Shown one piece after another: positions 1 through 18,262 of a DNA stretch of 64,000 bases (position 1 is the stretch's first letter; every line of letters starts with the position of its first letter). The notes under the pieces were generated by a model. That model saw nothing but the letters and a program-made list of their open reading frames with translations, did no database searches and had not been told where the DNA came from. The position numbers and the translations under genes are program-made. The DNA comes from Porphyra umbilicalis (Eukaryota; Rhodophyta; Bangiophyceae; Bangiales; Bangiaceae), in assembly GCA_002049455.2 (NCBI GenBank), contig KV918801.1, positions 62,001 to 126,000 of the forward strand, given 5' to 3'.

Positions 1-606
1 GCGGGGCCGCCCCCGCAGGCGGCCGCACCCACAGGCGGCCGCCCGCCGGCGGACGCGGCCCGCCGGCGGACGCGCGTGTCGAAAGGCGCGGCACGCGACG
101 CGCCCCGGCGCCGCCCGGCGGACCGCCCACGGGCGCCAAGCTGCACCCCGTGCACGTCGGGGCTGGGGGGGGCTGGCCGCCCCGCCACGCCCGTATTGCT
201 CCACTGCCACGGCCATCCGCATGAGGAGGACGGCAGGGCGCCACCCACATTGGGCGGGGCGTGCATGAATGGGCGCCCGGGGGGGGGGCGCCTGGCGGCC
301 GAGGAGGGGCGCGGCCCGAGCAGGGACCGCCCTTCACCGCCATCCGTGACACGGAGGTGGCGCGTTTGGCCAGCATAGATGGGGCGGCCAAAAGGGTACC
401 AAGGGGGGGGGGGGGGTGACAGCGCCCCCGCCCACCCCCGTCGGCGGGGGAGCACGCGGGGCGGGCGCCCACACGGCGCGCAGCGGGGGCGAGCCGCGCG
501 CGCACCCCCCCCGCGCCATGGATATCAAATTGGCCGAGCGCCATCAGCCGCCGACGAACCAAGCGGTACCGCAACAGACGGTTCCATGATGGAGACGGTA
601 GCGGCG
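1..606. repeat. Left arm of inverted duplication, outer part
   Basis: This stretch is similar, in reverse complement, to about 27580-28190. Shared landmarks in the same order are GCACGTCGGGG near 154, GGCGCCACCCACA near 239, CAGGGACCGCCC near 320, GTCGGCGGGGGAGCACG near 440, and ATCAAA...GCCA.CAGCC near 525-548. No convincing gene is seen. The arm runs to the window edge, so its outer limit is unknown. It stops at 606, where the large transposon begins, and resumes at 16971. Identity was judged by eye at roughly three quarters to four fifths. Confidence 0.75.
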
Positions 607-636
607 CAGTGGTGCTTAAACCGTGTCCTCGCGCAA
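607..636 (+). repeat. Left terminal inverted repeat
   Basis: It begins CAGTGGTGCTTAAACC and matches the reverse complement of 16941-16970 at 29 of 30 positions, with one mismatch at base 25. Weaker similarity continues inward for some tens of bases, for example TGGGCCGATTTC here against TGTGGTCGGTTTTC at the other end. Confidence 0.85.
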
Positions 637-1579
637 GGAGGTGGATGGGCCGATTTCACGTCGCAACAGCTTGCGGGCGACGCCGTTGCGGGCCGCAACG
701 CTCAAGAATATGTTGGCCGTGCACGCAAAATTTTGTGCTCTGGCCATGTGCGTGGATGCTGGATCTGGCCACACCATGAAATCCTGTTGTATCTCGCGCA
801 GAGGACGCTGCTGATAGCGAACATCCGCCAATCATCCTCCGTAACGATCCACACCGCGGGCCAATCGGAGGCATCAACCATGTGACAACCCGGACGACAA
901 GTGAAGGAAACTGACGAGTCGATTGGTCAGGGGATGGCAAGCGTGACGTGGGACTGCTCACGCGGACAGGCGATAGAATCGGAGAGAGCCTCTGGTCTTC
1001 TGAAGAAGCGTGAAGCGATGGGTGCTCATGGATACAGGTAAAACTCCTGGCGTCGCTCGTTGCCCGCGCAGGTCGCTCATTCAGTTACCGCGAAGCTCGT
1101 AGGTAAGAATCATCCTCCGTTGTCTCTGACGTGTTGAAAAGAAGTCCAAGAGATTAAGTGCATCAGGCGACTTCACATTCGAGATTATCCGTGCTACTAG
1201 CCGCTGCGACCGTCATCATCAAGACTTGGCATCAGGTTGAAAGCCACGGCATCCAACAGTTTGTGCAGGTGTTGCTCACTCAATGGACAGTACCAGCTTT
1301 CCCGCATCGTTGTCAAGAAATCAGGCCTCTCTTTCCAAAGGCAGCCCCCATTGTTTTTTAGCTTGATTCCACTCGCGCCCTGGATCTGCCTCTTCATGGG
1401 GGGCTAACTGTGCCACAAGGTCGTGCACGAATGAGCGGCAACGTGTCGGCCCTCTACCGTCCGAGCCTCTCTGTCTTCGCCTGAACTCGGCAAACCAGTT
1501 CGCCGTGGGCGCTGCCGACGCTGACGTTCTGGCAAGACCCTCCCCCCCGCATCACCCTCCCCCACGCCTTTTTCGCAAC
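637..1579. other. Subterminal region of the transposon, no gene supported
   Basis: Short open frames occur but have no recognisable domain, and the composition is less GC-biased than the flanks. Such a region may hold transposase-binding or regulatory sequence. No repeat beyond the inward extension of the terminal repeat was noticed. Confidence 0.4.
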
Positions 1580-1925
1580 TGCCCACGAGGGTGCCACCCC
1601 TGCCTACCACCGCCCGCCGCGACTGCTGCCCTTTCTCCCCAACCACGGGCGGGCTGCCGACGAGGGTGCCACCCCCGCCGACAACCGCCTGCCGCGACTG
1701 CTTCCCTTTCTCCTCAACCACGGGCGGGCTGCCGACGAGGGTGCCACCCCCGCGGACAACCGCCTGCCGCGACTGCTGCCCTTTCCCCCCAACCACGGGC
1801 GGGTTGCCGACGAGGGTGCCACCCCCGCCAACAACCGCCTGCTGGGACTGCTGCGCTTTCCCCCCAACCCCGGGCGGGCTGCGCACGAGAATGCCACCCC
1901 CGCCTACCACCGCAGCCGCGACTGC
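1580..1925. repeat. 75-bp minisatellite, about 4.5 copies
   Basis: The word AACCACGGGC (last copy AACCCCGGGC) recurs at 1641, 1716, 1791 and 1866, exactly 75 bases apart. Because 75 is divisible by three, several frames on both strands stay open through it and read as 25-residue repeats, for example VVGGGGTLVGSPPV on the minus strand (GTG-initiated frame, 1961 to 1404). No ATG-started gene could be chosen, so coding is uncertain. Confidence 0.85.
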
Positions 1926-2177
1926 TGCCGAAGTCGGCGCCAATCGAGGCGCATCCTCCACCCGCCGCCGCCCCCGCCGCTGCCGCTGGGTGGCTGGGTG
2001 GTGTTGCTCGCCTCCCCCCTCCGCAGTCGCCGACTGTGCTGAGTTATCCCGCAGCTACCGGCGTCGAAGTGCACTTTTGCATTTTAGAGGGTGGGTGTAT
2101 CTGAACTGTCGGTAGGGGGGGGGAGGATCTAGCTGCCCAGGATGCCCAGGATGATTGAAAGAAAAAGTGCACATCTG

Positions 2178-4211
2178 TCAAGCAACGTTGCACACGACCG
2201 GCACCACCGGAATCACAGCCCACAAGCGTCCGCCCTGGCGCTCCACATCAACTTCAAGTAAGCTCAAAGGCTTCGGGAAACAAAAACTCCACGAGAAAGA
2301 ATACTGTCGACGAGGGCTCGGCGGCCTGTAACGCAGCACCATGGAAGGTAAAACAGGCAGCGTCGGCCCGCCCACAACCACGTCAGCTCGCATGACGCTC
2401 GCCTCCGCCGTCTCATCAGTGTCATGACGCGCGACAGGGCCCTTCTCAAGGCCTCCCGACCAGTCGCCGTCCAATTCATCGACCATACCGTCCTCTCCAG
2501 TTGCCCGAAAGCGCGTATTGTCGACCTCCACGTCCGTCATCTCCGTGTCGCCAGCAGGGCCGGTCGCTGCCGCGGTGCCGCCGAGAGGGCGTGCGCGCAG
2601 CGGGCGTGCGCGCAGCGCTCTGCTCCGCAGAATACGCTCCGACATGCGGTCGACGCCGAGCATAAAGTCGACGTTCGCGCAGCCGGCCGACATTCCCCCC
2701 CCCACCTTCACACGCGCGGCGACATCCTCGAGCTCCGGGGTTGGGACAACCTTGGACTGCGTGATAGTGAGGATGAATGCATGCGGCCCCTCCTCGTCGG
2801 GCTCCCTCCTGCACGCCTGCAAGGATATCTGGAGGCTGATCTTGCCAGCCGCCGTTGTATCCAAACATGAAGCCAGGGGCAGCTGCACAGCCCACCCCCC
2901 GAGAGGCCAAGCGCGACAGGGTGCAACGTCCGACGTCACACATCCCGGCAAAGACGCCAGCGCAGGTACGTAGGCGGCAACCGCCCCGCCACGAGCCTTG
3001 GCCGTCGGACGGTCGACCTCTGCGGCGGCTCCGCCGCGCCCACGACAACGTCGCTTGCCGCCCGCGGCAGCCCTCGACGGGGTGGCCTCCGGGGTTGCGG
3101 GTGCCTCGATGTCGACATCAACCGGAAAGTCGGCCACAGTGGTCATGTAGTTATGCGGAGCCTTTTGCAGAGACTCGGTGAGCTCACGGACGAGGATGGC
3201 CGATGGGCTATTAGACAGCCAAGGCATGTCCCAATTGAAGACCAACCAGGCCATGTCGGTCCTCGTGCCAGACGGGTCGAGCCCCGGCACGATGGTGCAC
3301 TTGACCGCGACCGCCGCTGCCTGGCCTTCGGGCGTCGCCAGGTAGTCCCGCAGGCCGGCGAGCTCTGCAAGTGTCAAAGCGCCGTCGTGCCGTACGTCGA
3401 CGACCCAAAGATCAAGGCGCTCGCGTAGCCGTAAGCGACGCGACAGCCACTGCGCCGCGCCCGTCGCGTTCAGCAGCGTCTCCATGGCGCGCGGCACCGA
3501 GTTAGGCTGACCCATGAAATGGGTGAACTTCTTGCGCCGCCCGCCCAGAAACAGGCCGCGGGAGCACACGTGGAACATGCGGCACAGCGTCTCCCACCCG
3601 ACCTTCTGGGGCCCCTTCCTTGAGTCCACCTGCAAGAACATGCGCTTGAGCGTGTCGTGCACCGAGGCCCGGCTGTCACCGCGAAAGTCGCCGCCCAAGA
3701 ACGCCATTACTGAGGCGTAGTAGACAATGGCAAGCGCGGGAGTCGAGATGGTGTCGGTGAGAACGGCCGGCGTGACAAGGAAGATGATCCGCAGGACGTA
3801 TGACAGGAACAGCTCCTCCTCGGAGAGCGGGGGCGTGGTGGGCTGTGGGCTCAGCTGCGAAGCGTTCGGCGGCGCCGACGGCGGCAGCGATGCGCCGCGC
3901 TCCGACAAAGCGGTCGACGCGCCCAGTGGAAGTGCTGACGTTCTGGCCGCCGCCGCTCTTACGGTTGTAATGGTTGGGGTCAGCACAGCAGTCGCACCTG
4001 GCGATGCCAGCGCCGACCCGCCCAACGGCTCACTCGCCGCAGCCGCAGAAGCGCTCGGAGCCGCCGTCGCCGTAGTGTCCCCGCCGACAACCGCCGCGGG
4101 TAAATCGGTCCCGTCGATACCAGCCGGTGGCGGACCGGTGGGCAGAGCGGGGCGTGGCGAGGCGAGAGGTCCCTCCGTCGATGCGGGTGTCGCTTGCATC
4201 AGCGTGCTCAT
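2178..4211 (-). CDS. Unknown 677-residue protein of the transposon
   Basis: The family is not recognised. The start is the ATG at 4211-4209, the first ATG in a frame that opens slightly upstream at a non-ATG codon. About 130 N-terminal residues are rich in Ala, Pro, Thr and Ser. A hydrophobic stretch follows (around LSYVLRIIFLVTPAVL and ALAIVYYASVMAF), then a better-mixed central region of about 200 residues that looks like a folded domain (motifs such as WLVFNWDMPWLSN). A basic patch (GGKRRCRGRGG) and an acidic segment (DTEMTDVEVDN) lie in the C-terminal half. It is the leftmost gene of the element and points outward. Coding is supported by length, ATG start and varied residue use. It could be an accessory transposition protein or cargo. 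Confidence 0.55.
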   Translation of the reverse strand: MSTLMQATPASTEGPLASPRPALPTGPPPAGIDGTDLPAAVVGGDTTATAAPSASAAAASEPLGGSALASPGATAVLTPTITTVRAAAARTSALPLGASTALSERGASLPPSAPPNASQLSPQPTTPPLSEEELFLSYVLRIIFLVTPAVLTDTISTPALAIVYYASVMAFLGGDFRGDSRASVHDTLKRMFLQVDSRKGPQKVGWETLCRMFHVCSRGLFLGGRRKKFTHFMGQPNSVPRAMETLLNATGAAQWLSRRLRLRERLDLWVVDVRHDGALTLAELAGLRDYLATPEGQAAAVAVKCTIVPGLDPSGTRTDMAWLVFNWDMPWLSNSPSAILVRELTESLQKAPHNYMTTVADFPVDVDIEAPATPEATPSRAAAGGKRRCRGRGGAAAEVDRPTAKARGGAVAAYVPALASLPGCVTSDVAPCRAWPLGGWAVQLPLASCLDTTAAGKISLQISLQACRREPDEEGPHAFILTITQSKVVPTPELEDVAARVKVGGGMSAGCANVDFMLGVDRMSERILRSRALRARPLRARPLGGTAAATGPAGDTEMTDVEVDNTRFRATGEDGMVDELDGDWSGGLEKGPVARHDTDETAEASVMRADVVVGGPTLPVLPSMVLRYRPPSPRRQYSFSWSFCFPKPLSLLEVDVERQGGRLWAVIPVVPVVCNVA

Positions 4212-4929
4212 GTTGCGCGGGGCGCCAACCAAGAGAGGGGAAAGGTGTGGGGAAGGGCGTTACGCAGGGTGGAAGGGTGGTGGTGGTCGGGTGGCGGTGG
4301 CGCTCGAGTCCTGTCAGTGCTGGCGTAGAGGTGGCGAAGGAGGTCGGAGAAAGACGCAGTTCTTATAGGAGGGCGATGTGCCAGACGGAAATTCAGCATA
4401 GGCTGCCGGTAGCAGTGGCGCCGCGGTGGTGGTGGTGCTCTCATTCCACCCCGCGGCACACCCCGTGGCACACATGAATGCCAAGGTCCGCGGGGGGGGG
4501 GGGGGGCGTGGCGGATGGGGGGAGGGGAGACTGTTGACGTCCACAAGTGCGGGGGGGGGGGCGTGGCGGAAGGCGTGGCGGATGGGAGGAGGGGAGACAG
4601 TCAACGGCCACAAGTGCGGGGGAGGGGCGCGTGGCAGATGGGGTGAGGGGAGACAGTCGACGGCCACAGCGACGGCATGGACGCCGAGGGCGGCGAATGG
4701 CGAGTGGGCGGGGCGAGTGCGGAGAGGGACATTGAGACCGAACACAATCGGGTGTAGTGATTGAACAGATAGATACCACAGGATTCATGGTGTGTGGGAC
4801 AGTCATCGAGCCAATGGTCTAGCGACATCCCATCGATTGGAGATCAACTTGGGAACAAGCGCGGCTGATCAAAACGTCTGCACCTACCAGGTTGAGGGAG
4901 ATGGTGACGGCGGCCCCACTGTCGACGGG
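4212..4929. repeat. Intergenic, G-rich degenerate tandem repeats
   Basis: Between about 4485 and 4680 a block with GGGGAGAC, a CAAC/GACG core and CCACAAGTGCGG recurs three times at roughly 55-70 base spacing, with G runs of up to 14. The four-G clusters could form quadruplexes. No gene is supported. The promoter of the gene starting at 4211 should lie here. Confidence 0.6.
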
Positions 4930-5210
4930 TCGGCGTCGTCCCCCCCTCTGCCCGCCCCCACCCACCACTGCTGCTGCCGCGGCGCGCCCCAATCGCCGTC
5001 GGCGGCGGCGGCGGCCGCTGCGTTCCCGCCCACCCGCCGCGTCCTCGCCCCGTCCTCGCCCGACGCGTCGTCCCCCCCTCTGCCCGCCCCCACTCACCAC
5101 TGCTGCTGCCGCGGCGCGCCCCAATCGCCGTCGGCGGCGGCGGCGGCCGCTGCGTCCCCGCCCGCCCACCCGCCGCGTCGTCGCCCGACGCCGCCGCGTC
5201 GGCCGCGTCC
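4930..5210. repeat. About 132-bp direct duplication
   Basis: A block starting TCGTCCCCCCCTCTGCCC at about 4936 recurs at about 5068 with few differences. It contains CTGCTGCTGCCGCGGCG and a short GGC run. It sits just beyond the 3' end of the minus-strand gene at 5242-6291. Confidence 0.8.
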
Positions 5211-5241
5211 CTTCCCCCTCCACGAACATGCCGACGGGGCA

Positions 5242-6291
5242 CTATGTCTCCAACACCACATCCTCCCACAGCACGGCCAAACCGTCCTCCGCCATTGCCT
5301 TACTCGACACGCGACAGGTCACGTCTGAATAGACAACGAAAAGATCCGCAGAGGGGGGCGCCACGCCACAGGCCGGGGCGACCACGGCGCCGACCGCCGG
5401 GGCAGCGATGGCTTCGGCTGTACCAGCAGCAGCACCAGCTGGCGCGCCACCGACCGCGATGCCGGCCTTGCCGGCCACAAGAGAGCAAGCCGGTGCACCA
5501 CCAGACGGCTGCGCGCCCGACGGCGGCGCGCCCGTTGGCGGCGCGCCCGACGGCGGCGCGCCTGAAAACGGCGCACCCGAAAACGGCACGCCCGACGGCG
5601 GCGCGCCTGAAAACGGCGCACCCGAAAACGGTACGCCCGATAGTGGCGCGCCCGACAGTGGCGCGCCTGACAACGGCGCGCCCGACGGCGGCGCGCCCGA
5701 AAGCGGCGCGGCAGGCGCCAGTGCTCCAGACATTGCGCCAGTGACGGGCGTCCGCGGCGCGCTGGACGGCAACGCGCCCGACAACGGCGCGCTCGACGAG
5801 GGCGCGCCCGACAACGGCGCCCCCGACAACGGCGCCCCCGACAGCGGCGCGCCCGACAGCGGCGCGCCCGACAGCGGCGCGCCCGACAGCGGCGCGCCCG
5901 ACAGCGGCGCGCCCGACAGCGGAGCGGAAGTCTCTAGTGTTCCAGGCAGTGCGCACGCGACGGGCGTCACACCAATTGTCGTGGCAACGAAGGAGACGAC
6001 GCCGGGGGCGAACACTGCCGGGGTGACGACGTGTGCGGCGCTGGCAGAGGCAACGAGTGAGGACGGCCCGCCCGCCAGCGACCCAGCCGGGCGTGGCAGG
6101 GGGGCAGTCGGACGGCCTAAGCTGAGGCTAAGGCCCGTGACAACGGTGCCGTTCCGTAGACGAAGGCCCGCCATCACACCACCAATGACGCCGCGGACAG
6201 ATCGCGTCACGCGCCGCCCGTGGCCGCTGTTCTTCTTGACGCCCGGCGACCTCTTGAAGCCGGTCTTGGAAGCTGATGCACAGCGGTTCAT
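5242..6291 (-). CDS. Low-complexity SGAPL-repeat protein of the transposon
   Basis: The start is the ATG at 6291-6289; the frame opens further upstream but reads as low-complexity sequence without an ATG. The predicted 349-residue protein has a basic N-terminal 60 residues (motif KTGFKRSPGVKKNSG), then a long tract of 5-residue units (SGAPL and variants) encoded by a 15-bp minisatellite, and a more varied C-terminal 70 residues ending near LFVVYSDVTCRVSSKAMAED. No family is recognised. The non-repeat ends suggest a real but fast-evolving protein. It is the second leftward gene of the element and starts about 1.7 kb from the divergent gene at 8019. Confidence 0.45.
   Translation of the reverse strand: MNRCASASKTGFKRSPGVKKNSGHGRRVTRSVRGVIGGVMAGLRLRNGTVVTGLSLSLGRPTAPLPRPAGSLAGGPSSLVASASAAHVVTPAVFAPGVVSFVATTIGVTPVACALPGTLETSAPLSGAPLSGAPLSGAPLSGAPLSGAPLSGAPLSGAPLSGAPSSSAPLSGALPSSAPRTPVTGAMSGALAPAAPLSGAPPSGAPLSGAPLSGAPLSGVPFSGAPFSGAPPSGVPFSGAPFSGAPPSGAPPTGAPPSGAQPSGGAPACSLVAGKAGIAVGGAPAGAAAGTAEAIAAPAVGAVVAPACGVAPPSADLFVVYSDVTCRVSSKAMAEDGLAVLWEDVVLET
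5500..5935. repeat. 15-bp coding minisatellite (GGCGCGCCCGACAGC type)
   Basis: Units of 15 bases related to GGCGCGCCCGACAGC are repeated more than twenty times, nearly perfectly at 5835-5925 and more diverged to the left. The unit keeps the reading frame of the minus-strand gene and yields SGAPL repeats. The homogeneous end suggests recent expansion. Confidence 0.85.
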
Positions 6292-8018
6292 GTCGACGGC
6301 TGTGGCGGGATGAAGAAGCACCAGGACCACGCGGCAAGCAGCGGCAGGAGCACGCGCCGTCGGGCAGGGGGCGCGGCGCAAGGAAGCGAACGACCGCCGG
6401 GAAGGTGGACGCACGCGGAACGGGAAACAGGGTCCGAAGGCGGGGGGGGAGGGCGGGCACTCAACACCACCACCACTGTACCTCCACAGAACGGGGGGCA
6501 GCCCGGAAACTAGAAGGACGGGCCGTCGGCGTGTGCGCGTTAGCGTGTGGCGGATGGGGATCAAAACGCCTAGAACAGACTGAACAGACGTCTCTCTTGT
6601 ACTGCCACGCCGCTCCTTTTTTCGGCCCAACGCGAGCTGTCCGCTCACCCCTCCTCGTCCTCCCACGCGCGCAGACGCGTGCGCGCGGGCCGGTCTGACC
6701 AGCAGTGCTCGGCAGCGCTCAGCCGTACGAGCAGTGCCCAGAAGTGCCAAGCCGTACGTGCACCCAAGAGCCGTGGGCAGAAGATGACACCACGCCAAAG
6801 TCGGCCACGGCCACCAGCTCCACGCCGAACGCGTGGCATTCACTCAAACTCTCTCGAGACTCGCCCACGGGTGAACGTACTGTCGTGCGGGAGCCACGTT
6901 TGTCACCTCGGTGATAGGGCGTGACGGATGACAGTGGTACAAAGTTTGGATCTTGATTGTCATCTGACAATCCCCCTTGTCACAGCCTGAAGATGGATGA
7001 CGTTTGTCCCTGGAAACTCCACGCAAAGAACGTGGGTTTGGCTCTCCTGACGGAGAGGGACGACTGACGCCCCACGTCGTTGCACACCTTCTGGCAACTG
7101 TAGCTGTGGCTGCAGCTAGAGCAGGCGGCGCCGCCACATGACGCCGCGTGGCAAAGCCGCGGCCGCGGAGCCTTCAGGCGCAGCGAGCTTACATGGCGGT
7201 ACCACGCCAGCGTACCCTCCCGGGTACGTACACGCCCGGGTACGCTGGGGCCACACCAGCGTACCCGGGCGGTGCCACGGTACCCGGCGGTGGCAGCGGC
7301 GCGGCCGCGGCGCCGCGCCGCCTGCAGCTGCAGGCCCAGCCAGCTGGCTGCAGCTCACCTGGCAGTGCCACGCCTGCTTGCCCGCGAGCCAGCTTCCCTG
7401 GCGGTGCCACGGTGCCACGCCCGTTTACCTGGCGGCCCCACGCAGCGTCAGTGGGTCTAGGAGCCGCAGGATAGGTCCGCCGGCCGACCAGGCACGCCAC
7501 ATAGGACAGCCGCAGGCACGACGTAGTTGCGCCACAGTTGGTGTGCCACGCTGCCATCGCATGGGTGGCGCCGCGCGGGTGCGTAGGGCCTTGCGCTGCC
7601 ATGCCGCGTCAGCGAGCTGCAGCGGTAGCGCCATGCGTACGCCCGCACGGTCGCAGCTGGTGCGCCCACCAGAGGGCCCGTACACTGCGTAGAGCGGTCG
7701 CCGCGGTGTAGCGCCATTGCCACGGTGGCCGCCGCCGTCACCATCACGGCGGCGTTGTGGCGCCGTCGCCCCCCGGCCGCTACTACAACTGCCGCGGTTG
7801 GCACCTCAAAAGGGAATAAGAGGGCCCGGTGCCGCCGCCGCAGCCGCTCCTTCCTGGCCACGCCCCAGTGCTCACGAGTCGCACAGCAGCACCCATGCCG
7901 TCCAAGCTTCCAAGGACGCCACCGACGACCCTACCGCCTCCAACGCCTCCCCCGCATCCTCCAGCCGACCAACGTCCCCCCTGCTCAATCCCGCTTACGA
8001 CCTGCCACGGACGATACC
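6292..8018. other. Divergent intergenic region with palindromes
   Basis: This 1.7-kb region separates the leftward gene (start 6291) from the rightward gene (start 8019) and probably holds both promoters. No gene is supported. 7190-7440 is dense in GGTACC, GTACCCGGG and GCAGCTGCAGG palindromes, including the perfect hairpin at 7234-7270. Confidence 0.5.
7234..7270. promoter_or_regulatory. Perfect 14-bp inverted repeat with 9-base loop
   Basis: GCCCGGGTACGCTG at 7234-7247 is the exact reverse complement of 7257-7270. A related copy of the arm word, CCAGCGTACCC, lies at 7207-7217. Its place between two divergent genes of the transposon suggests a protein-binding or internal regulatory site; this role is inferred. 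Confidence 0.5.
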
Positions 8019-9983
8019 ATGGCCGCCGCCGACAAAGCGACAATCGCACGCCCAACTACCACACCCCATGCGGCGCTTGGCAGCATCGAGGTGAACGATG
8101 AGTGGGCGACGGTCGTCAACCACGGCGACGAGCAGGACGCGTCCGTCAATGCGCTAATGCGCGACGCCTCCCTGCCCAAGAAGGCTACGTCGTGCGACTA
8201 TGGAAGGCCGGGACGGCGCGAGCCGCCTGCACCAGTGGTTGTTCTCAACGCACGCAAACGCAAGTCGACTATCGCGGACAAGAGGCCGGCGGCGCCAGCG
8301 CTGGTCAAAGATGGCTCTTCCGCCGTGCTGGACGCGCTGCATAGGAAGCAGCGACGCACGGAAGGGACGCCGGCTCGCTCACCGCTCGTGCCATCACAAG
8401 GAGTACCGTCGGAGGCCGAGCCCTCTTTGCCCCCGTCGGTGGAATCACCGCCTCCGAGGCCACCGCCGCCACGGGCGCCCCCTTCATCGACACGGCCGCC
8501 CCCACCGTCGACAAAGCGGCATGCATCCTCACCGGCCAGGGAGGCACAGCCGATACAAGTCGAGTTCAGGCCGCCATCATCGGGAAAGCCGCCCGTTCGC
8601 TCGGCCCGGGATGCCAAGCGTACGTCGGAGGTGCCAGTCGAAGCAGAGACGTCCAAAAAGCACACCAGCGAGGATCACGTGCCGTGGATGTGGCCGCCTC
8701 CAGGCGTGCTGTTGTGGCCATCACCGCCAGGGGGAGCTCTGCTCCCGTGGCCAGCGTCACCTCCCCCTTCGCCCTCGGCGGCTGCCGGCGACCAGGCGGC
8801 CGATTTCGACGCGTCCGCCGGCGATCGGGATGCCAACGACGGCAGGGCGGCAGTCGCGGCGACGCGGGACGGCGACGCGGCCGCGCCCTGCGACCGGACG
8901 GCAGCCAAAGAAAAGGGCTCCACCGACAAGCAGGACCCCTCCAACGACAGCACGACCACTGGTGGCAAGGCGGCCTCCGAAGGCCAGGCGTCGTCCGGCG
9001 ACTGCTGTCCGCTGAACAGCCTGATGACAGCCGACCGTGCCGCCGATGCACCGCAGGCGCCCGCCCACAGGGAAGCTGCAGTGCTGCAGGGTGACCGGAA
9101 GGGCGATGTGGCCTCCGATCGTGCCGCCGACGCGCTGCCGCAGCCGGCGTCCGCCCGCGTGGCGACGTCCATGCCACTCGGCGACCGGGGGGCCGCGGCG
9201 GACCGGGGGGAGGCTGTCGCCGCAGACCGTGCCGCCGACGTGCTGCCGGCGTCCACCGACAGGGCGGTTCCGGTGGCCGTAGACCAGGCCGCGGACCAGG
9301 CCGCGGCGGCCATCGATGAGGCCGCGGTAGCCGCCGATGGGGTGACCGACGCGCAGCTGGGTGATCGAGCCGTCGCGATGGACGTCGACCATGCCTTCAA
9401 CGCGCTGCTGGCCTCCGACGGCGCGACGACCGCCGGTCTGCTCGGGGGCCGGGGGGCTGCGGGGGTCGCCAACCGCGCCGCCAACGTGCTGCAGGCTTCC
9501 GCCGACGGGGCGGTCGCGGTGGCCGTGGACAAGGCCGCGGTGGCAGCAGAGGACCTGGCAAAGGCGGGCGCCGCAATGGCCGCTTCCAATCGTGCCTTGG
9601 AGATGGCAGCGGCGGCTGCTACTCAAGCTACCGAAGCCATGGTCACGGCAGTCGCCGCTGTGGCAGCAGTCAAGGTGGCAGCGACGTCGACAGCATCGGC
9701 AGCTGCCTTCGTTGTCGCGGCCGCAGGGCGGCACGATGCAGCCGCTCGTGAAGAGATGGTGGTCAGAAAGGCGGCTGCCGACGCCAGAAGCGCCGAGTCT
9801 GCTGCAAATCGCGACCAAGCGGATAGTGACCGGGCTCGCGTCGTCCAAGCTGCCGAGGCCCGGGTGATGCACTTCCTTCGCGTTACTGTCGCCGGTGCGA
9901 ACATTGTCCACAATGGGCAGATCAAGTGGGACATCGTTGAGGACATGGAAGAGAGCGGGAGTGATTTGGGAAGCGTCAGGTAG
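8019..9983 (+). CDS. Unknown 654-residue Ala/Asp-rich repeat protein of the transposon
   Basis: The start is the ATG at 8019 in the context ACCATGG, which beats the non-ATG start 294 bases upstream. Residues 1-250 are polar and basic with proline-rich blocks and a basic KRK motif. Residues from about 330 on are a degenerate repeat built on DRAAD, LPAS and AVAVD units, likely helical, ending in a Glu/Arg/Ala-rich segment that could form a coiled coil (around REEMVVRKAAADARSAE). The last 40 residues are more conventional (VTVAGANIVHNGQIKWDIV). No family is recognised. Similar alanine-rich helical repeats occur near the C terminus of the next gene (11436-16253). Both point right and may be co-expressed. 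Confidence 0.5.
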   Translation: MAAADKATIARPTTTPHAALGSIEVNDEWATVVNHGDEQDASVNALMRDASLPKKATSCDYGRPGRREPPAPVVVLNARKRKSTIADKRPAAPALVKDGSSAVLDALHRKQRRTEGTPARSPLVPSQGVPSEAEPSLPPSVESPPPRPPPPRAPPSSTRPPPPSTKRHASSPAREAQPIQVEFRPPSSGKPPVRSARDAKRTSEVPVEAETSKKHTSEDHVPWMWPPPGVLLWPSPPGGALLPWPASPPPSPSAAAGDQAADFDASAGDRDANDGRAAVAATRDGDAAAPCDRTAAKEKGSTDKQDPSNDSTTTGGKAASEGQASSGDCCPLNSLMTADRAADAPQAPAHREAAVLQGDRKGDVASDRAADALPQPASARVATSMPLGDRGAAADRGEAVAADRAADVLPASTDRAVPVAVDQAADQAAAAIDEAAVAADGVTDAQLGDRAVAMDVDHAFNALLASDGATTAGLLGGRGAAGVANRAANVLQASADGAVAVAVDKAAVAAEDLAKAGAAMAASNRALEMAAAAATQATEAMVTAVAAVAAVKVAATSTASAAAFVVAAAGRHDAAAREEMVVRKAAADARSAESAANRDQADSDRARVVQAAEARVMHFLRVTVAGANIVHNGQIKWDIVEDMEESGSDLGSVR

Positions 9984-11435
9984 CGTGGGTTGGTTGTCAG
10001 TCGACCGGTAAAAGCACGGTGTCCACAACAAACAGCAAGGAATGACGATGTAGGAAAATGAAAGCGACAGGATATTGCAAGCGGGGCAGCGAGACGCGCA
10101 CACGTACCTGTTGCACGAAGCAGGCCGTGACGATTGACTCGGCACCCACCTCCACGTAGCGCCCTCATTCCACGGATTCAAGAACCCACCCCGTCAAGGG
10201 ACACCGCACGCGCACCACCGGCAGCGGACACCGATCTTCAGCTGCAGCAGGGTGGCTTTGGTCAAACAGCAGCAGCAAGGCAAGGGGGCGCTGCTTGCAG
10301 AGCACTGACAGCCCCGTCTGAAGACAAACAGCGTCAGAGCGAATCGACCTCGGTGAATCGACCTCGGTGAGCTGGCGGAGGAGTGGGAAAGAGATGACAA
10401 CGCCACGCCAGCCCGGTCCACCATCGAAGGGGGAGATGGCAACTTCTCATTCGCCGTCCGAGGCCGAGGTGTCAACGTCGCAGCGACGACTTCCGCCAGG
10501 GCATTCAGTCTGGGCGGGGGGTCCGCTGGCGAGAGCGAGCCAAGCAGCGCTGTGTGGCCTACCCGCGATGGGGCTATCGAGGAGTGGAGAAGGAGAGGAA
10601 CGAAAGGAGGCTCGCAACGGCGGGACGATGTGATTCGGGGACTCGGCGGCACGCGGAAGGAGGCGCGAAAGACGTGACGCTGCCAACTCAGCAGTCAGCG
10701 CCTTAGGGAATCTGCCATTCTGCCACGTTTTTCGTCGAACGCAATGAGTAAAATGCAAACCGAGACACTATATAGTGGTACCCCTTTTTTAGATTGAAAC
10801 GAGCCCTACTAGCTGCTATATGAAAGACAAACGAAACATTTGACCCTCTAACTGAATATTTCAACGGACTTAACTCTCTCTCCCTGTCATATTATATGAC
10901 ATTTGACGCGATTTGACAAATAGGTTCAGACTGCCCACCGTTCGACCTCATGAGTCCAGCTGTCGGGCGTCAATCTGGGCATGACTGACCACAATGCTCG
11001 CCAGGCCGCCGCGTGTCTGCCTGCCTGACTGTGCCTCATCCACCACGGCGAGCCTGTTCCCCTGTCTGTCCACTTGCGTGTCGTCTGTCGCTGACCCCGC
11101 TTTGCGTCTCTCCCGGCCCCTTTACGTGGCTATGTGTTCTCACCACTCGTGGTAACCCTCCCTCGATTCAGTGAACCGCCAGGTATGTCTGTCGGGTGTC
11201 CTGCGGGTTACCTCGAATGACCTCCCTCCCTCCGCCACACGCTCCATCCCCTCCTGGGGCCCGCTCAAAAGGACGAGGTCCTCGGCTGCGCCGCTGCCGG
11301 TTGTCACTCGCGGTTGGCGCTGGGCTTCCCTCCCCCGTTGTCGTGGCTCCGCCCACCTTCCTCTTTTAGACGGCGCGCGCGCTGCCTCGAGTCGTGCCCG
11401 ACGGCGCGACGCCGCCGCTGGCGGCGGCGCGCAAG
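9984..11435. other. Intergenic region, probable promoter of the large gene
   Basis: No gene is supported. A 14-base direct repeat (GAATCGACCTCGGT) is duplicated at about 10341-10368. An AT-rich island at about 10735-10925 includes the palindrome CACTATATAGTG near 10766, a possible TATA-like core, and several short AT words. It lies 0.5-0.7 kb upstream of the gene at 11436, which makes it the best promoter candidate for that gene. Confidence 0.4.
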
Positions 11436-14400
11436 ATGGTGTCGGGCGAGCCTCCTTCTCGGGGGGTGGCCGGTAACGTGCCGCATGACGATCAAGGGCC
11501 GCCGAGGCCACCGGTTGTGCCACTCGTGGCGGCTGCTGCCGCCAAGGATGCTGCGCTGTCGGCGAGAATGGCGCCCTCTACATCGCCGCCGCCGCCGCCG
11601 CCGCCGTTGCCGCCGCCGCTGCCGCTGCCGCCGCCGCCGCCGCCCCCGCCGCCGCCGCCGCCCCCGCCGCCGCCGCCGCCGCGGGCGGAGGTCGTGCCAC
11701 TCGCGGCGGCTGAGGTCGCCGAGGATGCGGCGCTGTCGGCGAGCATGGCGCCCTCTTCCTTACCGCCGACGCCGCCACCGTTGCCGCCGCCGCCGCCGCC
11801 GATCACGCCGGACGTTGACACGTCTCCGTATACGGAACTGGCGACTGGCGGAGTGGCCGACGCTGCAGCGGCTGCAGCGGCCGCCGGCCGCGCGGTGTCG
11901 CCAACGGTGGGGGCTCCTTGCACGCCGCTGCCTCGGTCACGCGTCGGTGGCGCGACGGAGGAAGGTCTTCCAGGTGCCAATGAAGCTGCTGTCGTCCACC
12001 TGCGTGATAAGCGCGACCGGCGCGTTTGTGCTCCCGCAGGCGACCTCGGAGACGTTCGGACGTGGTCGATTGTCGGGGTCGTCATGCCCTTGCCTGGTTT
12101 GGGAAGGGAAGTGAGGACGCCCAATGACGTCAACGCCGGCTCCTTCACTTTTTCCGCTCGCGTTACGGCGCTCCGCCGCCTGACCGGGCGCGAGGTGTTT
12201 GCTCGCGCCGCCATCAAGCTCATCAATCGTAAGAAGTACGACTCCTACTCGGCGGTGCACCATTCCATCCGCCTCCTCGCGCGTACACCCCGTTTGAGCG
12301 ACGATGATGGTAGCGAGGAGCCGTCGTGGGCGGGCATTCCGACAACGGGAGACCTGTCTGTCGCGCAGTGTCGCATCGTGCTGCGCCGCGCCGCGGCGAC
12401 AGTGCTCCGCACTTATCGCAAGGTGAACAAAGGAGACGTCACGGTCGACTCGGTGGCGGCCAGCGCGGTTGCACACCCGTGGTACAGGAACTCCCTGGCG
12501 GTCCGCGACCGCCAGAAAGTCAACGCCTTTGGCAAGAAGCTCCGGAATAATGCCAAGTTCAAGGTCCTGCCGCTAAAGCGGCGAATGGAGGTGGCCGCGA
12601 TTGGACCGGCACGCAGCATCGCCCTTCTCCGCACACTTCTTGAGCACCAACACTCGACGGACGGCGAGGAGCTGGTGGAGGATGGGGTGGAGATTGGAGC
12701 TCCGCGGCGGCGCAAGAGACGTCGCAAGCTGCTTCGTGGCATGACCATGCCTAAGGTCTTTCCGACGCCGGATGAGGTGCGCACGCTCGTGCGTGAGGCG
12801 GTCGATGTGCCTGGTCAGACTCCGCACGTGTTGCTTACTCTCGGTGCGGGCGGGACTTTACGCGTCTGGCGGTACGAGGTCGGCTCTGCCACGAAAGGTA
12901 CGCGCTGGTACAGGATGGACGATGGCACTCGCAAGCGCCTTGCCGCCCCCTACCACCGTCGACCTCGTCGGCCACCAGCAGAGCCCGGCCCACAACCAAC
13001 GGAATCGGCAACGGGCGCAATGGGCTTCCCCGTAGGTACAGAAGCGGACGGCGCGCATGGGTTCGGATTCTTCCCGGACGGCGTCGCCGGTGCCGGCATC
13101 TTGCCGCGCGTCGCTGTGGCTGACTCGGGCGGTGTCGACGCGAGTGCCAACTCGGCGGTCGATCCCGAGCTGTTGGAGACCTTCCAAATCACGCGCTCCA
13201 CCTACCTGGAGGACGTTGTGGACGTCAGTGGTACTCCCAGGGCGATGCAACGAGCGGCAATGGCGGGGGAAAGTGCCGAAGTTGAGGCGGCGGACGGGGT
13301 GGACGGCAATGCAGGGGAGCGCAGCGGGAGAGAGCTTGTCGTCGCGGTCGAGTTCGACCCGGTGCTCGCTCTACGTAACGCGTTTCGCCACGGATGCAAG
13401 CCGACGTCGATGGCCGACATCAAGCGGGCGCCAGTGGCGGTGACACTAGCTGGCGATGGTGGCCCCGTGAGACGATGCGCGATGACGGTATTCACGCTCA
13501 CGGCGTCGTCGCCGCTGTTTCCATCGGGCCGCACGCCCCTCATTCCCATCCTGTTCCTTCTGGGCGGGGAGCAGACCGTTCACTCGGCGGTCGGCGAGCG
13601 GTTGCGCGAGCGGCTCAAGGTCGCCCTGCGCACCACCTACATCGTGCCCGTCGCACCCGACGCCGTCCTGAAGCGGGGTCAGATCCCCCGGTCCACCGCA
13701 GCCAAGTCCCTGCCTTTCTTCATCCACGTGTGCGGGGACTTTGCTATGATCTCCCACCTGCTCACCCTAACGGGGTGTGGCGATGTGAACCGCTGCCCGT
13801 ACTTGTGGCCGTGCATGCCGGCGAGTTACCTGTCTGCGCTCATCCTCGACCGAGGGCGAGCGGCCCCCCGTGATGGGCCCTTCCTCTCAAACCAGTGGGA
13901 GCTCGCAGTTTGGGCGTTGGCCCGTTGGTGTACGCTTCGAGACGGCAACTGGCGTGCGCATGGCGGGCGTGTCCTGTGGTCTTGCCGCGGTTGCCGCCGA
14001 GACATGGTGGCTTTGTCGTCGTCGGTAGCAGTGCTGGCTTGCTCATCAACCAGCTGCCCGATGTTCGAAGAGCCTCAGGCACCGTTGCTGCCGCAGATTG
14101 CGTACACGCCCCTTTCTAAGATTTATCTGCAGCTGCGTCGGCGGTTAGGAGGGACGCGCGGGTATCCCCTGCTCGGCGACATCCCGTTCAGGATCATCGC
14201 GCCCGTGCTGCATTGCACGGGCAAGATTAGTAAGGGGCTCATGTTCTTCCTGCTTGCCATTATGCCGCTCACTATGCGCACAACAGCCCGCAACAAGATC
14301 TACCTGTTGATGGGCAGGTCTAATATGGGAGGCATGTACTTGCGTGAGTTTGGGCGCCTGGCGGCACTTGTGGTCGCCTTGCCGGGGGTGCTCAACAGGA

Positions 14401-16253
14401 TCAAGACGCGCAAGGGGCCGGCCTCTACGAGCGCGGGTGGTGGGAAGGACGACAAGGAGGAGGAAGTGGTCATCGATGGCGGTGCCCTTGTCATGCTCCA
14501 GCTCAGCCAGCTGCTGACCGCGGCGTGGCGGCGGGCCATAAGCACCAAGCCGGCCACCGAGCGGGAGCGCGCGGCGGCAGCACTGCAGCTAACGGCGGCC
14601 GTACTCGCCCCAATATACTCTTCGCTCAAGCCGCTAGACCCCGTCACCAAGAAGGCGGGCGTCTTCAACCTCTATCTTCACACGGCGTTGGCTCACGTCC
14701 GCTCAACTGTCGGCGAGGCGTACCCGACGCTCAACCACGTTTGTGATGACAACATTGAAGGCACCATCGCGATGCTGAACAAGTACTTCACCAAGCGGAC
14801 AAACAATGTCTCTCGCGGACAGTCCCTGATCAACATGCAGGCCATGGCGCCACTGGAGTTCAACGAGCCAAAGGGGCGCTCCGCCGCAGAGCTGCTCATC
14901 CTCACCGAGAAGCTTGTGCTGTGTCCGTGCCTTGTGCGCTTGGGTCCTTCTGTGCTGGATGAGTACAAGGCCATCGTGCGATTCGCGTGCAGGGAGCCCA
15001 CCCTCTCCATCTCCATTGACAACTTGCCAGTGTCCGACTTGGAGCAGACCGAAGAGGCCGCCGCTTTAGTCGCCACTGCGCTGTCGGCAACCGCGGCGGC
15101 CGCCGCGGCGGCCGCTGCGGCCGCGGCGGGGGTGGCGTCGGCGGCGATGACGTCGGCAGCGGTGGCGACGGCGACGTCGTCCAGAACAGCTGCTGCGGCC
15201 GCGGTGTCTTGTTCGCCGCCGGCCACGTCGACACATGTGGCGGCGGCCGTGGCCAGTGCGGCTGTCGCTGTCAAAGAGGCCGACGCCGCTGCTGTACAGG
15301 CGGCCGTTGTGGAGCAGGCCGCTCTTGAGGCTCTCGTTGGTGAGGCGCCAATCACTATCCACCTCGGCACCACCCCTGATCAGATCAAGACGCCAGAGCC
15401 GGGCGCCCCCGCCAGCGTGGAGCAGTCCCTGCAGCAGCACCTGCGGCGCGCGCAGCGGCATCTCGCTGTCTGCATGTGCGGCTCCTTGAGCGGCCGAGAC
15501 GCGAGCACCAAGGCCTTGGAGGCCGGGTTGAAGGCCGCGGATGCCTCAGCAGTCGCTGAGGAGGAGGCGGCCGGCACGAACAAGGCAGGTAGCCCGGCCG
15601 CCAGCGCGGCGCACGGGAACCAGGTGCCCATCGCCGCGTCAGTTGGCACGACGGCTGACGACCTGGCGGGCGCCGTCGGCGGCAAGCGCAGCTCCGATGT
15701 CGAGTCAGATGGAGACGACGACTTTGAAGTCTACGACGGTGACAACGGGGAAGATGTCCCGGTGTCAGGCGCGTCGGACGACGAAGACCACGGCGACGCG
15801 CCCGCGGAGGGCGACCGCTTTTACGGTCTCGACGACGCGGACCTGGCGCGAGCCGATAGTGACGAGGACCCAGCCATGGACGGCGATGACTCACACTTTC
15901 CCCTCGGCAGTGCCAGCGGCGTCGAGACGCAGAGCCATGCCGAGTTTTTGATGCAAGCGGCAACTGGTGACGACGCTGTGGCCAAGGTGCTACCGTCGGC
16001 GGACCTGGTCGACACTGTGCTTGGGGCTGTTCGCCCCATGCTCATGGCTCCAACTACGGACATTAGGGCGAGTGCTGCAGAAAACATCATGATGCTGCAG
16101 CTTTTCCAGGAGCGTTTGCGGACGCCTTCGCTTTTGACGTGGGCTAGTCGCGATGGTGTGCTCCTCCGCGATGTGGCGCTTGCCGCGGAGCGCGTAGAGA
16201 ACTCTTTGGTTGGGGTGTTGGCGAGAGCTGCCGATGGTGGGACGGTTGCCTGA
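11436..16253 (+). CDS. Putative DDE-like transposase, 1605 residues
   Basis: This is the largest and best coding frame in the window. The start is the first ATG (11436, AAGATGG); the frame opens 42 bases earlier at GTG. After a poly-proline tract encoded by CCG repeats (about 11580-11690) comes a basic region (RRRKRRRKLLRGM near 12710). The core contains LAGDGG (Asp codon near 13454), then VCGDFAMISHLLTLTG (Asp at 13737-13739) followed by CPYLWPCMP, then a His-bearing APVLHCTGKISKG segment near 14200, and CDDNIEGTIAMLNKYF (about 14740-14785). A GD...GD/CPxLW...H layout recalls transposase-like proteins with an RNase H-type fold; this is from memory and not tested. The C terminus has alanine-rich helical repeats and an acidic stretch (SDGDDDFEVYDGDNGED). 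It is the rightmost gene of the element and the likely mobility enzyme. Confidence 0.6.
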   Translation: MVSGEPPSRGVAGNVPHDDQGPPRPPVVPLVAAAAAKDAALSARMAPSTSPPPPPPPLPPPLPLPPPPPPPPPPPPPPPPPPRAEVVPLAAAEVAEDAALSASMAPSSLPPTPPPLPPPPPPITPDVDTSPYTELATGGVADAAAAAAAAGRAVSPTVGAPCTPLPRSRVGGATEEGLPGANEAAVVHLRDKRDRRVCAPAGDLGDVRTWSIVGVVMPLPGLGREVRTPNDVNAGSFTFSARVTALRRLTGREVFARAAIKLINRKKYDSYSAVHHSIRLLARTPRLSDDDGSEEPSWAGIPTTGDLSVAQCRIVLRRAAATVLRTYRKVNKGDVTVDSVAASAVAHPWYRNSLAVRDRQKVNAFGKKLRNNAKFKVLPLKRRMEVAAIGPARSIALLRTLLEHQHSTDGEELVEDGVEIGAPRRRKRRRKLLRGMTMPKVFPTPDEVRTLVREAVDVPGQTPHVLLTLGAGGTLRVWRYEVGSATKGTRWYRMDDGTRKRLAAPYHRRPRRPPAEPGPQPTESATGAMGFPVGTEADGAHGFGFFPDGVAGAGILPRVAVADSGGVDASANSAVDPELLETFQITRSTYLEDVVDVSGTPRAMQRAAMAGESAEVEAADGVDGNAGERSGRELVVAVEFDPVLALRNAFRHGCKPTSMADIKRAPVAVTLAGDGGPVRRCAMTVFTLTASSPLFPSGRTPLIPILFLLGGEQTVHSAVGERLRERLKVALRTTYIVPVAPDAVLKRGQIPRSTAAKSLPFFIHVCGDFAMISHLLTLTGCGDVNRCPYLWPCMPASYLSALILDRGRAAPRDGPFLSNQWELAVWALARWCTLRDGNWRAHGGRVLWSCRGCRRDMVALSSSVAVLACSSTSCPMFEEPQAPLLPQIAYTPLSKIYLQLRRRLGGTRGYPLLGDIPFRIIAPVLHCTGKISKGLMFFLLAIMPLTMRTTARNKIYLLMGRSNMGGMYLREFGRLAALVVALPGVLNRIKTRKGPASTSAGGGKDDKEEEVVIDGGALVMLQLSQLLTAAWRRAISTKPATERERAAAALQLTAAVLAPIYSSLKPLDPVTKKAGVFNLYLHTALAHVRSTVGEAYPTLNHVCDDNIEGTIAMLNKYFTKRTNNVSRGQSLINMQAMAPLEFNEPKGRSAAELLILTEKLVLCPCLVRLGPSVLDEYKAIVRFACREPTLSISIDNLPVSDLEQTEEAAALVATALSATAAAAAAAAAAAAGVASAAMTSAAVATATSSRTAAAAAVSCSPPATSTHVAAAVASAAVAVKEADAAAVQAAVVEQAALEALVGEAPITIHLGTTPDQIKTPEPGAPASVEQSLQQHLRRAQRHLAVCMCGSLSGRDASTKALEAGLKAADASAVAEEEAAGTNKAGSPAASAAHGNQVPIAASVGTTADDLAGAVGGKRSSDVESDGDDDFEVYDGDNGEDVPVSGASDDEDHGDAPAEGDRFYGLDDADLARADSDEDPAMDGDDSHFPLGSASGVETQSHAEFLMQAATGDDAVAKVLPSADLVDTVLGAVRPMLMAPTTDIRASAAENIMMLQLFQERLRTPSLLTWASRDGVLLRDVALAAERVENSLVGVLARAADGGTVA

Positions 16254-16940
16254 TTGTGCACGGCTCTGCGTCTCCTCGTATCATAGCTGCTCCTATCACG
16301 TCTTGGACGTGCTTTTTTTTTTCAATGCGGCAGTGCCGGCGGTAGCGCCGGCGACGACGGTGGTGGCGGTGAAACGGAGGGCGCCCGCGGTGTCGGCGTC
16401 GTCTGCTTTGGTGGCCACAAGCACCACGTGCAACACGCGGGGGCAGGCACGCGGGGGTGTACTATGTGGTTGTCTGCCACCGAAGTGTGGGCACGTGCAG
16501 CTGCACCTACACATGTTTCTGGACGTGTGCTCATGTTTCTGGACGTGCGCCTTCGCCCCCTGTGTCAAACCACGTCAGTAGTCAGTACGCACACCTACGG
16601 GATTGTCCCGGTTCCCGCATGCTTACCGTGGGGAGATTTTTCCACCTAGAGCGCGAGCGGGACAAATCTTTGCGCTTGCGGCACGTCCCACCGCGCGTTT
16701 TTGCGGCCCGCAAGACCCTTCTTTGTTGGCGCTTCATGAAGAGCCCTGGCGCACGATTTCCCTGCACGCAACCGGCACAGTCGCGTGCGTCTCGCCGAGA
16801 CGCTTCCGATGGTGTAAAGCAAGGTCATGGAAATGACCGCTACAAGCGACTCGGCCAATTTTCGTAAAAACATGCGTCCACGACATTGTGAATGGGGTAT
16901 CCGCAAGGTCTTGTGCGCCGAAAACCGACCACACAGCCAT
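16254..16940. other. 3' region of the transposase gene and right subterminal sequence
   Basis: A run of 11 T lies near 16311-16322, about 60 bases after the stop codon. A 20-base word, CATGTTTCTGGACGTG plus four bases, is tandemly duplicated at about 16513-16552. No gene is supported. The last 150 bases show weak inverted similarity to the left subterminal region. Confidence 0.5.
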
Positions 16941-16970
16941 TTGCGGGAGGACACGGTTTAAGCACCACTG
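16941..16970 (-). repeat. Right terminal inverted repeat
   Basis: Read on the minus strand it begins CAGTGGTGCTTAAACC and matches 607-636 at 29 of 30 positions. The flanking host-side sequence CGCGGGGCGTGCGGCACGG continues the inverted duplication. Confidence 0.85.
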
Positions 16971-18262
16971 CGCGGGGCGTGCGGCACGGCACCCGTCCAT
17001 GGGCCTGTTGCACTGCGCGGCGAATGCCACGGGCGCGAGCGCGTGGAGGGCGCCGCCGCGCGCGTGTGAGCCATTGGCGCTGACGAGTGCGGTGACAAGG
17101 AACGGACGAACCATGCGTTTTGATCCGCCTAAATCGCAGACGAGAAAAGGGGGGGGGGGGCGGCCGCCGGATGGGGGTCGCGCCGCGCTCGCGCCCATCA
17201 GCTGCGGGTGGTATTGGCTAGGCTGGCGCCCGCGTCAGCACACTGGACGAGCGCGCCCTGCCGCCTGCCGCGACTCTCTGCCGGGGAGCAATTCAATCTA
17301 CGATGCGGTCCTGACAGTCATGTCCAGGGTCCAACGGTTGACGACGCAGCCCCGCTGGTTCTTTTCCGCGCGCACGCCCACTCGCGCGCATCTGCAACGG
17401 CCCGTGGCTACCAGAGCAGTGACTCCAGGTAACGCTGTGGTCTTCCCGCCAAGCGGTGGATGCGTTCTTTGCCCCAATAAGACATGGAACGTCGGTGGTG
17501 AACGGCACAATGGCGGCGACCACCGGCTGCGTGCCGCGGCAGCCGCCGTGGCCGCACCGCCGAGCGCGTCCGCCGTGCCGTCGTCTCGACCGGAGGACGG
17601 GCGGCCACCAAAACACAGCGTGCCGCTCACCACTGCCCACCAGCGGGGGTAGGCCCTGCGGCCCCGTCGGCGGCGGCCGCTCCCGAGCCCCCCGCCCCAG
17701 ACCCGCCGCCCGCAGAGGTGCGGGCACTCGACCCGGTGGCGGCAGTCGCCGCCAGCCCTGACTCCGCGCCCACCCCAACCTCTCCACCAGCGTCCGAACT
17801 TACGGCGGGCATCACGCTCGGGCGCGCGTGGGCGACGCGCGGGGACTCCCCCGGGACGCCTTGCCCTCCAGTTGCCGGCGGACACCACCCACCGCCTACC
17901 GCCGCAGCCGCTTCCAGCGCATCGTAGGCAGCACATGCCCACACAGGCACGCCCCCCCCCCCCGGCGGGGTCGCCACATTGTGTAGGAGGCGGCCCCCCC
18001 CCCCTCCGTGGAAGCCGCGCCCTCACCACGAGCCGCCCGCGCCCGGCGGCGGAACATACACCGCCGCCGTGCCAGCCACAAACAGCTACCGCAGCACCTC
18101 TCACACGCTGCGCGCTGGCGCGCCGCGTCGGTGACGGGCGCGTCAAAGAGCACGGCCGCCACGTTGGCGGGGCGCCACGCGGTGCCAAACGGGCCCGCCG
18201 CGAGCAACCCGCCGACAGCTGCGCGAGGAGGAGGGCATACTCATCGTCGCCCGCGCCGTCGG
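16971..18262 (-). repeat. Left arm of inverted duplication, inner part
   Basis: In reverse complement this region matches about 26112-27566. Landmarks in order are GTGCGGCACGG, GCGTTTTGATCCGCC near 17113, CACTGGACGAGCG near 17240, CCTGACAGTCATGTCCAGGG near 17311, GCGTGTGGTCTTCCGCCAAGCGG-type sequence near 17440, and CACAATGTGGCG with its C run near 17950. On the minus strand it encodes a degraded copy of the third winged-helix-like domain of the 22307-26758 gene (GDDEYALLLAQLSAG ... AWRPANVAAVLFDAPVTDA) with frame breaks at homopolymers. It appears to be a decayed gene fragment. Confidence 0.75.

Follow-up and report, generated by a model that had tools for sequence, protein, structure and literature searches.

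Animals are the best-known source of RAG1-type recombinases, via Transib and the RAG-like (RAGL) transposons, and EnSpm/CACTA elements and some fungal lineages are their distant, motif-sharing kin (PMC7204232, PMC12730594). The CACTA-Transib-RAG (CMCT) clade is described by target site duplications (TSDs) of 2-5 bp, by CA..TG ends 'in most cases' and by C(2)C and H(3-4)H motifs (PMC12730594). CACTA elements are marked by CACTA/TAGTG termini, a 3-bp TSD and a transposase accompanied by ORF2; what ORF2 does during excision and transposition has been worked out in particular families (PMC4158355). EnSpm has motifs common to Transib and RAG1 (PMC12730594). Transib and RAGL elements have 5'-CAC ends and 5-bp TSDs, for RAGL 'almost always' (PMC7204232), while Kyakuja elements have 7-bp TSDs and CA..TG termini and are reported without terminal inverted repeats (TIRs) (PMC12730594). 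We compare these systems with a transposon found in a 64,000-nucleotide stretch of Porphyra umbilicalis DNA (assembly GCA_002049455.2, contig KV918801.1, termed C41 here, C41:62001-126000), which is called the window in the following.

The element spans positions 605-16972 of the window. We read it, with a probability of about 0.82, as a cut-and-paste DNA transposon of an apparently undescribed CMCT lineage, the transposase of which has a predicted RAG1/Transib-type DDE core. The predicted fold, the TSD length and the H(4)H motif fit CMCT, whereas CACTA and CAC ends are absent; therefore the clade fits, and none of the named members that could be tested does. The 3-bp TSD is exact in 22/30 related elements and H(4)H is present in 28/28 homologues, and the CG ends depart from CA..TG, a criterion that is not strictly defining. 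As for the C(2)C motif, a Cys pair with a spacing of 5 stands at the RAG1 position and C640-x2-C643 lies further on. In the literature searched, which left Repbase entries outside the comparison, no description of this element was recognised. The boundaries and the empty site are as follows.

602..604, no strand: left TSD copy, CGG; the empty site reads CAG here
605..16972, no strand: whole transposon, 16,368 bp, based on TIRs, 3-bp TSD and empty site
605..636, plus strand: left TIR, starting CGCAGTGGTGCTTAAACCGTGTCCTC
16941..16972, minus strand: right TIR, 31/32 identical to the left TIR
16973..16975, no strand: right TSD copy, CGG
26112..28190, minus strand: inverted duplicate of the flanks with the empty site, junction at about 27570

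The first-pass annotation had placed a multi-gene DNA transposon at 607..16970 and had argued that it inserted as a single unit, because its joined flanks would match an uninterrupted inverted duplicate. Its 29/30 inverted repeats (607-636 against 16941-16970) are confirmed, although each end was 2 bp short; once 605 and 16972 are counted, the TIRs begin with CGCAGTG and are identical at 31/32 positions. CG adjoins CAGTG at 8/8 ends of the first four elements (605-16972 and those on contigs C440, C372 and C59), and the terminal dinucleotide in 36 fetched related ends is CG in 32, CA in three and GG in one. The termini were set at 605 and 16972 because of these counts (8/8 and 32/36) and because the 3-bp TSD is seen only with CG inside the element. 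The subterminal region contains few short repeats only, and CACTA-like subterminal repeat arrays, which were looked for in the element, were not found beyond these. A 75-bp tandem repeat with 4.7 copies lies close to the left end (1579-1929).

Insertion as a single unit is borne out by the empty site in the inverted duplicate. The left flank (236-512) aligns to 27930-27661 with 79% identity (E 7e-47), and the right flank aligns in pieces within 27435-26109 with 82-84% identity. When the flanks are joined at the corrected boundaries (481-604 plus 16976-17120), they align with the duplicate without a gap over the junction (GACGGTAGCGGGGCGTGCGGCACGGCACCCGT against CACGGTAGCAGGGAGTGCGGCACGGCGCCCGT), with a score of 176 versus a maximum of 97 among 200 shuffles, and the empty copy holds a single CNG (CAG) in place of the duplicated CGG. 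A weak point is that this alignment has several gaps elsewhere, of which the nearest, of 8 bp, is on the left and stops some 12 bases before the junction. The element likely arrived after the duplication, as had been proposed. Its earlier loss from the duplicate is the alternative: the order of duplication and insertion is not directly readable and the flanks are only about 80% identical, but at its junction the duplicate has just one CNG, and no footprint is visible, which makes a loss improbable. The duplicate itself contains an inverted repeat (27112-27330), in which the same part of the flank matches 27330-27187 and 27112-27170 in opposite orientations.

Target site duplications were assessed in 30 two-ended elements, 18/30 of which were picked as same-contig end pairs from a search with the end of a short element. 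Left out were a wrongly paired C148 row (6 mismatches), a second row for C5, and single ends; the 30 still include C298 (16 kb, probably a false pair), C395 and C74, none of which has an exact TSD. An exact 3-bp duplication is present in 22/30 elements (CTG 8, CAG 6, CGG 5, CCG 3), whereas random pairs gave a mean of 0.73 exact 3-bp duplications and a maximum of 6 in 2,000 trials. CNG stands in 52/60 flanks versus a background of 11.3%. Among the first four elements, 3/4 have the 3-bp duplication, a value that the random-pair null reaches at any offset in 0.025% of 20,000 trials. The 8-bp target duplications that the first-pass annotation had suggested (the CAGTG ends had at first prompted the guess of a hAT element) are not there: they are exact in 0/30 elements at any of six boundaries, as are 7-bp duplications in 0/30, and the TSD is 3 bp of the form CNG. 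A 2-bp CG duplication flush with CAGTG is exact in 23/30 elements (24/30 for a 2-mer shifted outwards by one base), which is what an element ending in CG would give. It was rejected because the empty site would need an extra 5-bp indel and because the outer 3-mer, although variable (CTG, CAG, CGG or CCG), agrees between the two sides in 22/30 elements. C395 and C74 have near-identical flanks (CGGCAA / CTGGAATCGGCT and CTGGAGTCGGCT) and probably represent a single insertion in a duplicated segment.

The genome search covered 83.8 Mb in 665 contigs; the window itself has a G+C content of 58 to 82% per 2-kb block. The 24-base end has two exact matches, both in the 605-16972 element, and one further place, on C440, with 3 mismatches, compared with no matches for a control pattern. 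A relaxed search gave 9 matches versus 6 for the control pattern at the same threshold, namely the element's own two ends, both C440 ends, single ends on C372 and C59, for which the partner ends were located in fetched sequence, and three matches on C16, C27 and C263, which were judged to be chance. A DNA search with the transposase core added 15 matches, which fall into 13 loci on 12 contigs and were each identified as a protein relative by tblastn; C30 is the best of them. The C30 element has the end CGCAGTGGGTCTTAAAGCGTGGGCGC, and a search with this end gave 18 matches (0 for the control), including a partner 17.4 kb away and the ends of short elements. It spans C30:90550-107932 (17,383 bp), is flanked by CTG on both sides and has both genes, the transposase and the second one, arranged and oriented as in the 605-16972 element. 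With the short-element end as query, 79 end matches were obtained, including the two of C30, and 0 for the control. Further elements whose ends are of this kind, the existence of which the first-pass annotation had left to be checked, are found on C30, C440, C372 and C59 and among the short elements.

The short elements include a non-autonomous family, mostly of about 490 bp and with CGCAGTGCTCCTTAAAGCGTGGGCGC ends, on C5, C38, C120, C162, C114, C138, C140 and other contigs. Between the ends of the short element C440:3268-4849, which has a CCG duplication outside, lies a gene of the Tim10/DDP family (C440:4127-4396; Pfam PF02953, E 1.2e-19), possibly a host gene captured by the transposon family. 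C100 and C625 share the same end and the same outer flank and appear to be a duplicated or doubly assembled locus.

The two genes of the element that are conserved in C30, and the putative functional sites of the transposase, are the following.

11394..16253, plus strand: transposase open reading frame (ORF), 1,619 amino acids as listed; GTG start, first ATG at codon 15
13455..13457, plus strand: putative catalytic D1 (AGDGGPV), by fold position; D in 26/28 homologues, gap in 2; strand end in the model
13737..13739, plus strand: putative catalytic D2 (CGDFAM), by fold position; D in 27/28, gap in 1; after a strand
13794..13814, plus strand: Cys pair C-x5-C, ZnC2-like, 28/28; first Cys 19 residues past D2
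14679..14696, plus strand: H-x4-H (LYLHTALAHV), ZnH2-like, 28/28
14757..14759, plus strand: putative catalytic E (DDNIEG), by fold position, 28/28; in a helix of the model
2178..4232, minus strand: second conserved gene, 684 amino acids as listed; three homologues plus the C30 counterpart

By residue number, the conserved pairs are C577-x5-C583 and H872-x4-H877, each present in 28/28 homologues. In the further Cys pair, C640-x2-C643, C640 is found in 27/28 and C643 in 28/28, with a shorter spacing in some homologues. By Foldseek, about 370-440 residues of the predicted transposase structure can be matched to RAG1 and Transib, with the span 161-950 of the model corresponding to about 459-1001 of RAG1 and to 21-496 of Transib. 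This match argues for a RAG1/Transib-like core, in which D1, D2 and E would form the catalytic triad according to their fold positions. The spacing between RAG1 D708 and C727 is 19, equal to that between D2 and the first Cys here, and the best RAG1 match of the H-x4-H block is KITNYFHKTLAHVPEI at 931.

Among the 7,986 best word-sharing candidates scored from the protein database, 21 match the transposase at E<=0.01, with identities from 96% down to 32%, and none carries a precomputed Pfam domain. A second search with a four-sequence alignment gave 18 proteins, 5 of them new. Pfam searches with 22 alignment members returned scattered single matches only (best E 0.022), and no transposase relative is encoded in 21 pattern stretches from viral contigs or in 591 from prokaryote genomes. 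One relative, P0035 (872 amino acids), has a C-terminal CobT VWA domain (PF11775, E 3.1e-45) and is either a fusion or derives from a chimeric contig.

The second gene is divergent in orientation from the transposase gene. It has three homologues in the protein database, at 96, 82 and 39% identity, and its C30 counterpart, in the same place and orientation, is 46% identical over 615 aligned codons; for the transposase, identity with C30 is 52% over 1,437 aligned codons. Divergence from C30 is 0.60 at third and 0.31 at second codon positions in the transposase gene, and 0.60 and 0.39 in the second gene, and therefore both are as expected if they evolve as proteins. No Pfam domain was found in the second protein, and its structural model (predicted local distance difference test, pLDDT, 31) is useless for fold assignment. 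Next to 12 other transposase loci, no homologues of the second gene were seen in about 2-3.5 kb each, a span too short to decide on their presence.

How this element relates to the described systems depends on ends, TSD and transposase taken together. An ordinary but diverged CACTA/EnSpm element would explain the 3-bp TSD and the transposase accompanied by a second ORF (PMC4158355), the latter seen in 2/2 full-length elements with the second ORF equated by gene plan, and it would place the transposase in a DDD/E clade whose RAG1-like motifs EnSpm has in common with Transib and RAG1 (PMC12730594). Against such an assignment, the ends read CGCAGTG and not CACTA, none of the 27 family proteins matches a Pfam transposase family, and the strong CNG target preference sets the element apart from EnSpm as far as descriptions go, so that we consider it rather unlikely. 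A large size is a further likeness to CACTA elements. Plant CACTA elements reach lengths similar to 16 kb, and the exceptional size that the first-pass annotation had claimed did not hold up: CACTA-type elements of 16 kb that encode a transposase and one more gene are not unusual. The unusual features lie elsewhere, in the predicted RAG1/Transib-like fold of the transposase, in the target rule and in the presence of a partner gene of unrecognised kind. ESTA, Plavaka and Lanisha, deeply diverged relatives of EnSpm, are comparable in this respect of divergence, and ESTA has also been tied to RAG1 by structure-based comparison (PMC12730594). They differ in that ESTA has TA duplications and Plavaka 2-3 bp duplications with other termini, and the available part of the source contains no report of CNG targets or CGCAGTG ends for any of the three (PMC12730594).

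A true Transib/RAG-like element, akin to ProtoRAG and with the second gene as RAG2 counterpart, would account for the agreement of the predicted fold with most of the RAG1 core, for the H-x4-H motif and the D2-to-Cys spacing of 19, and for the two-gene plan. It is nevertheless improbable: the ends are not 5'-CAC (PMC7204232), the TSD is 3 bp in 22/30 elements and 5 bp exact in 1/30 (C59) at CG-inclusive ends, the Cys pair is spaced 5 and not 2 with an extra four-cysteine cluster, and the genes are divergent and not convergent, with a second protein in which no Pfam domain was found. Less probable still is a Kyakuja-like (KDZ) element whose 7-bp duplications would directly adjoin CAGTG. Ends at 607 and 16970 would give a 7-bp length difference at the empty site, in line with the 7-bp TSDs and CA..TG termini known from Kyakuja (PMC12730594), but 7-bp copies match on average at 3.8/7 bases and are never exact, versus 22/30 exact 3-bp copies, and CG behaves as part of the repeat in 32/36 ends. 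Kyakuja is also reported without TIRs (PMC12730594), which are present here, and among the structures compared, which contained no KDZ member, the predicted fold matches are to RAG1 and Transib. NuwaI (PHIS) elements resemble the present one in a 3-bp CWG duplication and, in most of them, two ORFs, but they differ in their usual TIR start GGG, an average length of about 4.5 kb and a Harbinger-related transposase with a Myb/SANT protein (PMC4482050). Here, CTG/CAG make up 14/22 duplications and CGG/CCG the other 8, and the TIR starts with CGCAGTG.

Several observations weigh against the undescribed CMCT lineage that we favour. The element terminates in CG and not in CA as is usual in the clade, 8/30 elements are without an exact 3-bp duplication, and the Pfam searches with the 27 family proteins mentioned above gave no transposase family at E<=1. 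The structural model of the transposase is of limited quality (mean pLDDT 62.7, predicted TM-score 0.52), and the Foldseek TM-scores are low, with at most 0.45 by target length and 0.26 by query length. At the sequence level, the link to RAG1 is weak or not significant: the hhalign score of 21.6 is reached by 3/40 shuffles, the highest of which scores 24.9. Among the six motif blocks compared, H-x4-H is the one that stands out (p 0.02 taken by itself, not corrected for six), and the best RAG1 position is collinear for only two blocks. In the PDB sequence search, query A1 gave no match at E<=1 and query A3 four chance matches at E<=10. Only two full-length copies are confirmed (605-16972 and C30). 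C100 was rejected as a third, since neither a second gene nor, within 19.6 kb, a partner end was found, as was C298:56341-72674, which is flanked by CTG/CTT, contains neither gene in two 2.4-kb samples and probably joins two unrelated ends. Finally, no movement of the element was seen.

Two further ORFs lie within the element.

7725..9983, plus strand: low-complexity ORF; conservation as a gene not supported
5242..6843, minus strand: repeat ORF with a 15-bp tandem repeat in 27 copies, not supported as a conserved gene

Of the four genes predicted by the first-pass annotation, two are supported, the transposase and the second gene, whereas these two are repetitive or of low complexity and have no supported C30 counterpart. 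Homology of 7725..9983 with a C30 ORF in the same place was not supported, the score of 186 being within the range of shuffles (up to 221). A Pfam Pentapeptide match on the repeat ORF passes its cut-off (22.9 versus 20.2 bits), and no counterpart of this ORF was found among the frames shared with C30. Elsewhere in the window, an ORF at 51931-54234 (plus strand) encodes a reverse transcriptase and RNase H (RVT_1 E 6e-34) and is presumably Gypsy-like by domain order, and an integrase ORF with rve and SH3_retrovirus domains at 48482-49756 (minus strand) is one that we take to be Copia-like.

In the proposed mechanism, the transposase would bind the CGCAGTG terminal repeats, excise the element and join its ends at CNG target sites, the two joints being staggered by 3 bp, and gap filling would leave the 3-bp duplication. 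The chemistry of cleavage and joining would follow that of the RAG1, Transib and CACTA families. For the second protein, an accessory role comparable to that of CACTA ORF2 is probable by analogy. Transposases of this element or its relatives probably also move the short elements, whose ends belong to the same class. Beyond the single locus, it is possible, although the odds are somewhat short of even, that these elements represent a superfamily-level group of giant two-gene transposons that combine most of a predicted RAG1-type core with a four-cysteine module, a dedicated second protein and a strong CNG rule of their own. Such a group would parallel RAG1-RAG2 independently, as another RAG-type recombinase that recruited a partner gene. 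A lineage with a predicted RAG1-type core, in a genome where it could be connected to no named family, and with complete elements, a clear target rule and a conserved partner gene, would provide an outgroup for questions on the assembly of the RAG core and on the way in which transposases of this type gain second proteins. The CGCAGTG ends together with the 3-bp CNG duplication are also a usable signature for the annotation of genomes that contain it.
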